Below, one piece after another: positions 7,670 through 52,335 of a stretch of DNA of 64,000 nucleotides. The stretch lies in NCBI GenBank assembly GCA_026985075.1, contig JALSQX010000102.1:1-64000 (forward strand). Direction: 5' to 3'. The position numbers and the translations under genes are program-made. Origin of the DNA: Blastocatellia bacterium. GTDB lineage: Bacteria; Acidobacteriota; Blastocatellia; HR10; J050. Under the pieces are notes generated by a model. The model worked only from the letters and a program-made list of their open reading frames with translations, had not been told where the DNA came from and ran no database searches. The number at the start of each line of letters is the position of its first letter. Position 1 is the stretch's first letter.

Positions 7670-8290
7670 CTATGGAAGCTCCAACCCCACGCCGTGGCGG
7701 CGAAGTTCCCGCCGGAGTTGCGTGGGATTCTGATAATGAATGGTGCGGATGCCCAACCGGTGAGCGCACTCCACATTCAACGCCCGGTCATCGATGAACA
7801 GGCACTCTTCCGGAGTCCGCTGAGTGACCTGGAGCGCGATCTGATAGATGGCGCGATCGGGCTTCCGTACGCCCAGAAAGCAGGAACTGAAGAAGAGGGC
7901 GAAGAGATTCTGCAGCCCAAACCGCTCGATGCGATAGTGATTCAACTCCAGGGACTCGTTGTTGAGCGTCGCCAGCAGGTAGCGCCCCGAGCGCGCCAGT
8001 CGTTCAACGATGGCCAGCGTCTCCCGAATCGGTTGGGATTGCGCCCACATGAAGGCTTTGAACCCCTCCCGGGTGAACGGGCGCGGTCGATAGAAGATCG
8101 TCCGCTCCAGATATTCCTCTAACGTGAGGCGCCCGGTCTCGAAGTCGGCGATGACCAGTTCGTGCCGGTCCTGGAAATCTTCCCAGTCCAGATTGAACTG
8201 CTGGGCCGCTCGATACCGTGATGTCCGGTCCCAACCGTTGGTCAGGAGCACGCCACCCACATCCCAGAACAGAGCCGTGATCTCCATCAT
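7670..8290 (-). CDS. HAD-superfamily hydrolase (YihX-like)
   Basis: 206-residue HAD subfamily IA phosphatase-like protein. Motif I is LFWDVGGVLL, with the nucleophilic Asp but Gly in place of the second Asp, as is common in the glucose-1-phosphatase-like YihX group. Motif II is in LLATLNNES, motif III is the Lys in GVRKPDRAIYQ and motif IV is LFIDDR. The substrate is not predictable from sequence; a sugar phosphate is likely from its place in a pentose-phosphate operon. Its ATG overlaps the stop of the tal-pgi gene (ATGA), and gnd follows after 15 nt, so all three are probably translated together. Confidence 0.85.
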   Translation of the reverse strand: MMEITALFWDVGGVLLTNGWDRTSRYRAAQQFNLDWEDFQDRHELVIADFETGRLTLEEYLERTIFYRPRPFTREGFKAFMWAQSQPIRETLAIVERLARSGRYLLATLNNESLELNHYRIERFGLQNLFALFFSSCFLGVRKPDRAIYQIALQVTQRTPEECLFIDDRALNVECAHRLGIRTIHYQNPTQLRRELRRHGVGLELP

Positions 8291-11037
8291 GCGAGCACCT
8301 CGGCCAGCGCGTTCAATCCCTCGATGACGTCGCGCCCCAGATTGACCCGGAGCACGCGTCGTTTGCGCTCGATGAGCGCTCGATAATCTCCTACGGCTTG
8401 AGCGCGAATGAGCGTCCCGAAGCTATAAGTGGTCTCCGGCACCGGCAGGTCATCGGTCGGTTCGTCCACCAGTTGCAGGAACAATCCCGTGTTGGGCCCG
8501 CCCTTGTGCAACTGACCGGTGGAGTGGAGGAAGCGAGGTCCATACCCCAGAGTCGTCGCCAGCAGGAGTCGATCGCACAATCTCTTTCGCACCGTTTGCA
8601 GATGGTGGGTCGTCGCTGGCGTCGGTGCCAGATAAGCCTGTATGGCCACGTAATCTCCAGGCCGAGCTGCGCTCAACCAATCTGACATGGCGCGCCTCAA
8701 TGTCTCCCGTTCTCCGGCAGTGACTTCATGGATCGCATTCGCCTCCCGGCCCGCCTCGCCTCTCGGCGTCATCGCCTCCCGGGCCAGCCTCTTGGCCAGT
8801 TCCACATCGGGCTGATTGAACGGATGAATGCCCAGCACCGAACCGGCGGCGGCCACGGCGACTTCCCAGCGGAAGAATTCCTGCCCGAGATCGGTTTTCT
8901 CGGTCAACCGAATCCGGGCCACGGGATGACCCGCCGCCTCCAGCGCTGCCCCCCGTCTCTCCCAATCGTCCTCATCCCCTTCGAGAGCCACGGAGATGAA
9001 GAAACGATCCGCTCCATAAGCTTCCGGAGGCAGTGGTGGTTCATCGATGATGGGAACGATGCCCTTACCCTCTTTGCCCGTGCTCTCGGCGATGAGTTGT
9101 TCCAGCCAGGCGGGGAACGCCATCAGTGACGACGAGGCCAGGAACGTGACCTTATCCCGACCGGCCAGCGCCAACTCTCCCAGCGCCGCTCCCAACACCA
9201 GGCAGGGATTGTTCGACTCGGCGACGCAAAACGCACAGGCTTCGGCCATGGTCCAGGCTCGGTCCAGCACTCCCGTGACATCCACGCCGATCAGCGCCGC
9301 CGGAACCAATCCGAAGGCGGTGAGCGCCGAGTATCGTCCGCCGACGTCTGGCGGAGCCGTGAACAGGCGGCGAAAGCGGCGCTCTCGAGCCAATGCCGCC
9401 AATGGCGTCTCCGGATCGGTGATGGCGATGAACTGGCGCCCCGGCGCGCTCGTCCTTTGACTGAGGCGGTGCCAGAAATAGCGAAACAGCGAGAGCGTCT
9501 CCACCGTCGTGCCCGACTTGCTGGAGACGAGAAAGAGCGTGCGCGCCAGATCGAGCTGAACTTCCACAGCCCGCACGGCCGCCGGATGCGTGCTGTCCAG
9601 GACGATCAACCCGGGAAATCCCGGCGCGTGGCCGAATGTGCGTTGGAAAACCTCCGGAGCCAGACTCGAGCCGCCCATGCCCAACAGGACCACGTGACGT
9701 ATCCCTTCCGCCTTCACCGCCTCGCCGAAGGCGAGCACGTCGTCCAGTTGTTCGGGCATCGTTTCGGGCAGAGTCAACCAGCCCAGGCGATCCCGGAGTT
9801 CGGGCAGCGGTTCGGGCGACCAGAGCGTATGATCCTTCTGCCAGAGTCGACGGGCGAATCGGGCCGCCTGCCACGTTCGCACTCGCTCATCGACGCGATC
9901 CCGATAGCGACCCAGGCTCAGACTCTGGCGATCCACCTGGTTTTTCAAGATGGCTTGGCGTTTCTCTTCCAGCACCACCAGGAGCTTGTCGAAGGAGGCG
10001 GCGAAAGCGCGCACGCCCTCGGTCTGCAACTGCTCGGTGATGGCCTTCAGGTCGATGCCCAGTTCGTTCAGACGAGCGAGAGCGGCTCTGGCTTGTTCCA
10101 GGCCCTCCTGGAGCGAGGGGCGTACCCGGCCGTGGTCGCGAAAGGCGTAGAGCGTGGTCGGGGGCAAAGTGGTGACCGTATCCGGTCCGATGAGTTCTTC
10201 GACGTAGAGCACGTCAGAGGCGTTCGGATTCTTGGTGCTCGTGCTGGCCCACAGTGGACGTTGAACGCGCGCGCCGCGCCGACGCAAGGCGTCGAAGGTC
10301 GATCCATAGAAGATCTCGCGGAAGCGCTCATAGGCCAGTTTGGCGTTGGCGATGGCGATCTTGCCCTGCAGGCGCCGGGCCTCCTCCGTCCCGATGGCCT
10401 CCAGCGCGCGATCCACCGCCGCGTCCACCCGGCTCACGAAGAACGAGGCCACGGAGGCCACTCGATGGGGTTGAGGACAGCGCTCCAGCCCGCGCAGATA
10501 GGCATGTGCGACTGCTTCGTAGTGGTCGAGAGAAAAGATGAGGGTGGCGTTGACGTTGATGCCTTCGGCGATGAGCGTCTCCAGAGCTGGCATCCCCTCG
10601 GGCGTGGCCGGGACCTTGATCATCACGTTCGGGCGGTCCACGGCTCGCCACAATCGTCGGGCATCGGCGACCGTCTTTTCGGTATCGTGGGCCAGATGCG
10701 GCGAGACCTCCAGGCTCACGAACCCATCGGCTCCATCGGTGTCCTCGTAGACGGGGCGGAGAATATCGGCGGCCATTCGAATATCCTCGATGGCCAGCTG
10801 CTCGTAGAGCATTTCGATTTCCGGGCGTGGATCGGCGCTCAGGCTGGCGCCAAGCGTCTCGTCGTAGTCGGTGCTGCCAGCAATGGCTTTCTCGAAGATG
10901 GAGGGATTGCTCGTTATGCCTCGCAGCCCGTCTTCCTCCACCAGACGACGAAGCTCGCCGCTGGTGATGAGCTGGCGACGGATGTAATCCAACCAGACGG
11001 ATTGATGATGCTTCTGCAATTCTTTCAATGGATTCAT
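8287..11037 (-). CDS. tal-pgi: Bifunctional transaldolase / glucose-6-phosphate isomerase
   Basis: 916-residue fusion linking the non-oxidative pentose phosphate branch to glycolysis. The N-terminal 370 residues are a transaldolase: [13 protein letters not shown] near residue 40, the Schiff-base Lys in [12 protein letters not shown] near 140, and [11 protein letters not shown] near 200. The rest is a phosphoglucose isomerase: [34 protein letters not shown] (sugar-phosphate loop) and the C-terminal [16 protein letters not shown] carrying the catalytic His/Lys region. Tal-Pgi fusions are known in several bacterial lineages. Both halves keep their key residues and there is no frame break. It overlaps both neighbours by 4 nt, placing it second in the operon. 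Confidence 0.93.
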
Positions 11038-40749: not shown

Positions 40750-41096
40750 GAGATCGAATCAGTCCTCCGAAATCGTGCCAGGTTCCTCGACTCCAACGTC
40801 GGCAGATTGTAGCCATTCGGAGGGCATTTTGGAAACCGATTTATCATTGGACGGTATGTCCGGTGAAAATTCATCGAGGAAAGTTCGCTGGCCACTCCAG
40901 AGCAGTCGTTCATTCTGGATTCCAGGAATGAGCATCGGCGTTTTGAAGAGCATGGATCTTGGAGATCACCCGCTTCCCTCGCAGCTCCACATGGAACGGA
41001 ATCGCACGCTTCTTCGCGATGGGTGATGCTGACTCACATCCTCCCCTGTTTTGGGGCTCTGGAGGATGGTCACGCCTAATAGGATGGAGCGTGGCC
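40750..41096. other. Non-coding region upstream of the lactonase-like gene
   Basis: Leads from the gene's start into the P/Q repeat array A. A GGAGGATGG motif and short GC-rich inverted repeats recur near 41040-41075, probably further decayed repeat units. No gene seen. Confidence 0.4.
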
Positions 41097-41684
41097 CTCC
41101 CCGCGGACGAGCCGCGGGGCTTCCCGAGGGTGGGTGGGCCGCCACACTAGCTGACAAGTGATGCCTCCCCGCTGACCAGCAGCGGGGCTTCCCGAGGATC
41201 AGACCGCAGAGCTGATCTCCGGGGATGGTGACGCTTCTGGCGAATACCCGGAACCGTGATGGTTCCCCGCTGCCAAGCGACGGGGGTTTCCCGGTGGAGT
41301 GGATAAGCTCTCGCACTCGCCGACACCTGACCCCTCTCCGCTGGCGAGCAACGGGGCTTCCCAAAGGAGATGGCTTCCCCCGAACTAGCCGACAATTGAC
41401 ATCTCCCCGCCACCGAGCGGCGGGGCTTCTCCGGAGCGCATCATTCAGGGGGGATGACATTGGCAGGCGACTCACCGGGTCCGCTTCAAGCCCCGGAGCT
41501 GGTCTCCAGGGTGGGTGATGTTGCCAGCTAGTCAACGTGCCATCCATCCCTCTTTTATGAAAGCCCCGGAGCTGGTCTCCGGGGTGGGTGATGTTGCCGC
41601 CAGGCGAGTTCTCGCCGGACATCTCCCCGCCGCCGAGCGGCGGAGCTTCAAGGGCCGAGTCGCGGAGCTCGTCTCTGGGGTCCC
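41097..41684 (-). repeat. P/Q hairpin repeat array A (minus orientation)
   Basis: At least six P hairpins (arms like CCCCGCTG / CAGCGGGG) at 41099-41119, 41167-41187, 41265-41286, 41337-41356, 41405-41425 and 41625-41643. At least three Q hairpins (arms like CCCCGGAG / CTCCGGGG) lie at 41491-41511, 41564-41584 and, degenerate, 41661-41680. Read on the minus strand, P is preceded by GAAG and followed by AGG...TCA.TTGTCAGCTAG; Q is preceded by GTTGACTAGCTGG..ACATCACCCAC. Spacing between units is irregular. The array fills the gap between the SDR stop codon and the lactonase-like gene and is in the opposite orientation to arrays B and C. Confidence 0.8.
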
Positions 41685-41717
41685 TGACGCTCGCCGGCTC
41701 GTTCTCATGCACCCACT

Positions 41718-51587: not shown

Positions 51588-52143
51588 CCTCGGAGGCGAG
51601 CTTCGGGAGCCTGAGGAAACCCCGCTGTTCATCAGCGGGGAGAGATCAGTTGTGAGCTGGCGAGGGGCAGCGCTTAACGCTATGGCCAAAGCGCTACGTG
51701 GCGGGGAGAGATCAGTTGTGAGTTGGCGAGGCGGCCCATTCCTCCCCAGGGGAGCCCCGCAGCCGGTCGGCGGGGAGGGGTCAGTTGAGGGCTTGAGTAG
51801 CGGGTAACGATCCCCGGAGGCGAGCTTCGGGGCTTTCATGAGTGGAGTGGGTGGGGCGTTGACTAGCTGATCACATCACCAAGCGAGACACTTGGGGGCG
51901 GGGCTGGGAATAGCCGTGGGGCGTTGACTAGCTGATCACATCACCCACCCCGGAGGCGAGCTCCGGGGCTTGAGGAAGCCCCGCTGCTCGTCGGCGGGGA
52001 GGGGTCAGTTGTGAGCTAGTGGGACGGCGCATCTCCACCTCCCGGGGAAGCCCCGCTGCTCGTCAGCGGGGAGGGGTCAGTTGTGAGCTAGTGGGACGGT
52101 GCATCTCCACCTCCCGGGGAAGTCCCGCGGCTGGTCGGCGGGG
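51588..52143 (+). repeat. P/Q hairpin repeat array B (plus orientation)
   Basis: Q hairpins (arms CCCCGGAG / CTCCGGGG, loop GCGAG) lie at 51588-51607, 51812-51832 and 51948-51968. P hairpins (arms CCCCGCTG / CAGCGGGG) lie at 51620-51640, 51755-51775, 51979-51999, 52051-52071 and 52123-52143, plus a half-P at about 51709-51730. Every P is followed by (A/G)GGG(A)TCAGTTGTGAGCTAG-like sequence. A GCGTTGACTAGCTGATCACA block occurs at about 51857 and again 64 nt later at about 51921; the second leads directly into a Q. Structure and flanks match array A read on the other strand. Confidence 0.82.
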
Positions 52144-52158
52144 AGGGATCAGGTGTCG
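51975..52158 (+). repeat. 72-bp tandem units within array B
   Basis: Three successive P units start at 51979, 52051 and 52123, exactly 72 nt apart. The first two differ at only two or three positions over 72 nt, including the tail TGGGACGG(C/T)GCATCTCCACC; the third is more diverged. This indicates recent local duplication of a P unit with its tail. Confidence 0.88.
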
Positions 52159-52335
52159 GCTCATGGATCACGATGCATCTCCTTGTCGAGCATGAAGATA
52201 AAGGCTTTCATCGTGGATTTTGCCGGTCACCTCATGAGGAGAAAAATTTTCAAAAAATTTTTCCGGTCACAGGAATTCGGCCCTTCTGGTGAATTGTACA
52301 TGGTAGGGGGAGGGGATACATCGAGGAGACCGGAC

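Follow-up and report, generated by a model that had tools for sequence, protein, structure and literature searches.

Hairpin arrays in an acidobacterial genome as probable REP-like substrates of a fused two-domain Y1 protein

Hairpin arrays in the window

The window, that is, the whole stretch of 64,000 nucleotides analysed here, belongs to a Blastocatellia draft genome of 105 contigs (98.7% complete) and carries two arrays of short hairpin units. Array A (41096-41694), which is flanked by two minus-strand ORFs, has six minus-strand P hairpins and four plus-strand Q hairpins, with decay in several of them, and array B (51616-52164) is in better condition (Table 1). A preliminary description of positions 41097-41684 had reported two hairpin types in alternation, with P in minus orientation. 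The array is real, with the sequences as given and P on the minus strand, and both types are present. With the units arranged as P P q P P P Q Q P q, orientations are mixed as described, but the alternation is not strict. Nor is Q a hairpin unrelated to P: it is a unit of the same kind, placed on the opposite strand, and Q-like stems split genome-wide into two specificities, types A and B, the Q of array A being type A.

All types share a common plan, composed of a tetranucleotide (here termed the guide), a hairpin, 4-5 nt, a second tetranucleotide (the cleavage tetranucleotide), about 8 nt and GCTA. The hairpin comprises 21 nt, with an 8-bp stem and a 5-nt loop that mostly reads CTNGN. The two tetranucleotides are GAAG and TCAG/TCAC/TCAA in type P, CAAG/CAGG and TGAC in type A, and AAAG/AATG/AAGG and TTAC in type B; types A and B follow the same plan as P on the opposite strand.

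Table 1. Hairpin units of arrays A and B (window coordinates)
Array	Unit	Position	Strand	Guide	Hairpin	Cleavage	Tail	Remark
A	P, decayed	41096..41123	-	GAAG	41099-41119	not recognisable		
A	P	41146..41191	-	GAAG	41167-41187	TCAC	GCTAGT	ssDNA fold beats shuffles, z -2.6
A	type A (Q), decayed	41200..41235	+		41204-41224	TGAC		
A	P, decayed	41250..41289	-	AAAC	41265-41285	TCAC		
A	P	41315..41360	-	GAAG	41336-41356	TCAG		
A	P	41384..41429	-	GAAG	41405-41425	TCAA	GCTAGT	
A	type A (Q)	41487..41532	+	CAAG	41491-41511	TGAT	GCTAGT	
A	type A (Q)	41560..41600	+	AAAG	41564-41584	TGAT		ssDNA fold beats shuffles, z -3.3
A	P, decayed	41610..41649	-	GAAG	41625-41645	lost		
A	type A (Q), decayed	41657..41694	+		about 41661-41681			repeat family D3, 66% to reference copy
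B	P	51616..51661	+		51620-51640	TCAG		
B	P	51751..51796	+		51755-51775	TCAG		
B	type B	51800..51836	-	AAAG	51812-51832	TTAC		
B	type A	51927..51972	-	CAAG	51948-51968	TGAT	GCTAGT	
B	P	51975..52020	+	GAAG	51979-51999	TCAG	GCTAGT	
B	P	52047..52092	+	GAAG	52051-52071	TCAG	GCTAGT	
B	P	52119..52164	+	GAAG	52123-52143	TCAG		

The hairpin population of the genome

Further copies are found throughout the genome. The P pattern GAAGCCCCG..GCGGGGAGG has 85 exact matches, and 243 copies with up to three mismatches, whereas the reversed pattern has none at either setting, so that the population is not due to chance. P arrays, with a spacing of 70-72 nt, lie on about 20 contigs, mostly outside genes and with different flanks, which rules out one large segmental duplication, the source considered in the preliminary description. 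Long ORFs are avoided, with 25 of 396 units, taken from 18 genome stretches and the window, lying inside ORFs of at least 300 aa. Within the arrays, the succession of units and the distances between them are fixed, in a grammar that reads P> 71 P> ... P> 61 <B 70 <A 33 P> (arrowheads for orientation, numbers for spacing in nt). The smallest composite that stands alone is P> <B <A, in which the 3' sides face each other at the centre, the place taken in this genome by a transposase gene.

The stem is selected for pairing, since variable positions show an excess of Watson-Crick pairs: among 184 copies picked irrespective of the inner stem, pair 5 is Watson-Crick in 170 (117 expected) and pair 7 in 131 (51 expected). 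Structured RNA sites, the other possibility raised in the preliminary description, gained no positive support, as an Rfam search matched no family; stem covariation alone decides nothing against RNA. A CRISPR-like array was considered and rejected, given units on both strands, a variable hairpin interior and semi-conserved spacers.

Another near-palindromic repeat, CACAGAT...CACAG...GGCGGGATGNNCACAGAT...ATCCCGCC, is also dispersed in this genome, with copies at L027 799, 1917, 3404, 4459 and 8120-8781, L020 4314-7159 and L026 5336-6549. Several P/B/A composites lie in or next to its copies, and a search of this host family for empty sites gave no clean case.

Guide and cleavage tetranucleotides

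The guide tetranucleotide of IS608 lies at the foot of the hairpin and base-pairs with the cleavage tetranucleotide; the two pairs are AAAG/TTAC and GAAT/TCAA (PMC5934647). The pairing rule read from them joins guide 1 to cleavage 2, guide 2 to cleavage 1 and guide 4 to cleavage 4. Guide 1 matches cleavage 2 in 269 of 284 units (128 expected), a count that reflects only three subfamilies and thus few independent events rather than 284. Each subfamily has the right partner, and by base the match holds in 48/54 units for A-T, 49/53 for C-G and 172/175 for G-C. Cleavage 1 is no test of pairing, because the search fixed a T at this position, and guide base 3 varies freely. Almost all A and B units have a G-C pair at guide 4 and cleavage 4; this pairing fails in most P units, which have TCAG.

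A two-domain Y1 gene within the arrays

The preliminary description had noted the lack of a nearby transposase gene, which is true of the window but not of the genome, whose one Y1 gene lies amid the same hairpins on another contig. This gene (G000:C95:24052-24912, 286 aa) is the sole PF01797 match in the genome, encodes two fused IS200/IS605-type Y1 domains and sits within a P/B/A array that reads P> P> gene <B <B <A. Among the partners envisaged earlier (RAYT, TnpA or TnpB), the IS200-type enzyme has thus been found in two-domain form. The TnpB zinc ribbon (PF07282) had no match in the genome, and the RAYT model NF047646 scored 44.1 bits, below its cut-off of 80. In contrast, the IS200/IS605 model NF033573 scored 120.6 bits (cut-off 55), with both domains matching, and recognises 7/7 proteins from the same class. 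By these model scores, the protein falls on the IS200/IS605 side. Together with the guide-hairpin-cleavage layout and the hundreds of extragenic copies, a Y1 gene within such arrays supports the earlier reading of the hairpins as IS200/IS605-end-like or REP-like, non-autonomous and putatively mobile units.

Alignment of nine two-domain proteins yields only 23 invariant columns, the catalytic residues among them, and this catalytic set is invariant down to 25% identity. Domain 1 lacks HxH in 9/9, with THLR, AHVQ, DHLR, DQFR, NQVR, NSVR or DNLR at its position and no equivalent in the distant G173 homologues, and has an invariant Tyr115, Gln119 and His123 (9/9). Domain 2 contains the invariant HUH histidines His200 and His202 (9/9), and its Tyr is replaced in 8/9, being kept only in the protein of the window genome. 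The IS608 active site is built in trans, one monomer giving the Tyr, which lies on its C-terminal helix, and the other the HUH motif (PMC5934647). We infer that the motif split is the pattern to be expected if a fused dimer had retained one of its two trans sites. An AlphaFold model (five sequences) was weak (pLDDT 58.7), so that trans assembly is not readable from it; both halves have their helices and strands in the Y1 order, and Foldseek ranked ISDra2 and IS608 TnpA first.

The final codons of the gene extend into a type-B hairpin unit (L028 4860-4912), so that the unit supplies the C-terminal tail of the protein.

Homologues in other Acidobacteriota

The nine aligned two-domain proteins come from seven acidobacterial genomes, the window genome included. 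Genome searches found homologues in G340 (JACQDB010000036) and G260. Contig searches added JAMQPH010000123 (Pyrinomonadaceae), JAHFUG010000161 (Blastocatellia), a frameshifted homologue on QHXL01000663 and two gene copies on JAIQFY010000019 (L072 3983-4801 and L073 3983-4801). G173, a genome outside the class, has two more distant homologues (25% identical). Of 396 genomes of the phylum searched with a profile, four have full-length two-domain proteins, and a search of viral contigs found no relative.

All nine genes sit among hairpin units of their own sequence type. In the same-class homologues, the units on either side point towards the gene, are spaced 64-70 nt apart and read AAT[CA]-hairpin-ATNG-TTCA/TTAA...CCTAC; being AA/TT, homologues' units carry no contrast for guide/cleavage matching. 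In G173, one gene has an inverted unit pair on each side and the other has units upstream; these units retain the GCTAG tail, and a guide/cleavage match sought in them was not evident. The counted hairpin families are genome-specific, with P additionally present in a sister species. The type shared by G340 and G260 reaches 92 matches per strand in the former and 35 in the latter but has none in the window genome (G000); the G173 type, with 53 matches per strand in G173, is missing from both G260 and G000; and P, absent from seven other genomes of the family, order or class, has 22 matches in the sister species G001 of the same genus, in whose 480-contig draft no two-domain gene was detected.

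Some minor observations concern these loci. The proteins of the JAIQFY010000019 copies are 79% identical, and the genes lie about 9 kb apart, each with its own hairpin units. G260 has a second copy (L066 8804-10101, on G260:C3), broken into two reading frames, whose flanks still carry hairpins of a third sequence type. A short fragment at G077:C5:167409-167600 (L042/L089) resembles the linker and the start of domain 2 (40% identity) and may be what is left of a two-domain gene. At L074 5237-5817, about 3.4 kb from a two-domain homologue, lies an unrelated hairpin array (GCCCTCCGTTAGGAGGGC, spacing about 48 nt).

Proposed mechanism and alternative explanations

We consider it likely that the hairpins are REP/BIME-like single-stranded DNA substrates of the two-domain Y1 protein, with IS608-like pairing of guide and cleavage tetranucleotides, one composite trans site, and spread by nicking and strand transfer. 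In the proposed model, units would be exposed in single-stranded form, as on the lagging-strand template, and the guide at the 5' foot of the hairpin would pair with the cleavage tetranucleotide 4-5 nt 3' of it, with specificities of GA/TC in P, CA/TG in A and AA/TT in B. The protein, a putative fused pseudo-dimer of IS200/IS605-type TnpA, would have one trans active site, to which domain 2 contributes the HUH histidines and domain 1 the helix with Tyr...Gln, the mirror-image site having presumably decayed. It would bind the hairpin and nick 3' of the paired tetranucleotide, and strand transfer beside other units may then spread the units and build arrays. Binding, nicking position, trans assembly, movement and array growth are predictions of the model. 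Counted against it are the P matches of G001 in the apparent absence of the gene, the domain-2 Tyr retained in the window genome's own protein and the guide 4-cleavage 4 mismatch in most P units.

Alternatively, the units could be relics of a former IS200/IS605 element that now survive and are amplified only passively, by slippage and recombination between tandem copies, with the two-domain gene as a decaying passenger. The partial decay of array A, a head-to-tail period of about 71 nt that suits slippage, the broken gene copy in G260 and the hairpins of G001 without a detected gene would all fit. We regard this as unlikely, however, given that single units and composites are dispersed over about 20 contigs with different flanks, that the catalytic set has stayed invariant across such divergent proteins, and that stems and guide/cleavage pairs still match. 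A quite improbable alternative, although not mutually exclusive with a role as enzyme substrates, is that the hairpins are mainly host RNA or DNA control sites (terminators, mRNA-end protectors, or gyrase or nucleoid-protein sites) that the Y1 gene merely created; extragenic position and conserved stems are in line with it, as are the host roles described for E. coli REPs (PMC6006769), whereas the units match no Rfam family, conserve their unpaired guide, cleavage and tail motifs as well, and occur in arrays on both strands rather than one per transcript end. That another Y1/HUH enzyme, missed in the 105-contig, 98.7% complete draft or from a related element, serves the units while the two-domain protein does something else is very improbable, as the genome has neither a second PF01797 match nor a TnpB zinc-ribbon match, and the gene-among-units plan recurs with the homologues in six other genomes.

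The two-domain protein may well be a new HUH transposase-like enzyme, an asymmetric fused Y1 pseudo-dimer whose single trans site combines HUH of domain 2 with Tyr and Gln of domain 1. It would serve, within one genome, three guide/cleavage specificities arranged by a fixed grammar, and would have been retained, with hairpins of its own, in more than one acidobacterial class; we lean towards this view. IS608-type TnpA acts as a dimer and has two trans sites, and E. coli TnpA-REP acts as a monomer. A single-chain, one-site form would, if confirmed, separate end cleavage from strand exchange. With likely substrates known from the same genomes, the spread of REP-like elements would become directly testable, and one genome supplies three natural contrasting guide/cleavage pairs. 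Within the literature collection covered, a term search gave no paper on fused or tandem Y1 TnpA, which does not prove that there is none.

Relation to known systems

The closest analogy in organisation is with REP/BIME/REPIN elements and their TnpA-REP (RAYT) genes, or REPtrons (PMC2817692, PMC3116915, PMC6006769, PMC8266576), which likewise have extragenic hairpins by the hundred, oriented either way and divided into several subfamilies per genome, and one Y1 gene flanked by hairpins, the cognate repeats around the gene being inverted both in REPtrons and in the window genome and the homologues. The regularly spaced units in alternating orientation are also a feature of BIMEs. By analogy, the system would work like a REPtron, with one Y1 gene and a dispersed hairpin population. 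In contrast to REPtrons, the GTAG/GT[AG]G foot tag is absent, being replaced by the P, A and B guides; the guide varies jointly with the cleavage site; and the protein has two domains and is class-1-like (Y---Q--HH, not the class-2 Y---NP). Lacking the tag and the class-2 motif and scoring below the RAYT cut-off, the system does not belong to the described GT[AG]G-REP/RAYT groups.

With IS200/IS605 elements (IS608 and ISDra2) it shares the guide-hairpin-cleavage layout, with putative pairing of the two tetranucleotides, and a protein above the IS200 cut-off, and their trans active site is a precedent for the composite site proposed here. It differs in having no TnpB, a single gene copy, no defined insertion sequence with left and right ends, and hundreds of gene-less units. 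Its protein is fused and half of the catalytic residues are gone: each IS200/IS605 TnpA unit has both HUH and Tyr, whereas here they are divided between domains 2 and 1.

Class 3 TnpA-Y1 proteins, found in Planctomycetes and Acidobacteria, resemble the system in being acidobacterial and in having atypical high-copy hairpins, and differ in a CnGA foot and a single core with a 155-position profile and about 178 aa (PMC6006769). TnpA-Y1 subclass 1.2 shares the low copy number and the Y---Q--HH signature, present in domain 1 of 7/7 same-class proteins. It was described by Quentin et al. (2018; PMC6006769) as comprising proteins of about 148 aa, mostly from Cyanobacteria and Bacteroidetes and reported without REPs, in a survey that excluded unexpectedly long (fusion) proteins. 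Probable hairpin substrates are now offered for relatives of a group reported without any. Single-domain Y1 proteins with Y---Q--HH are common in the phylum (L039, L041, L043-L059 and L081) and extend the range of this signature beyond the Cyanobacteria and Bacteroidetes reported in 2018.
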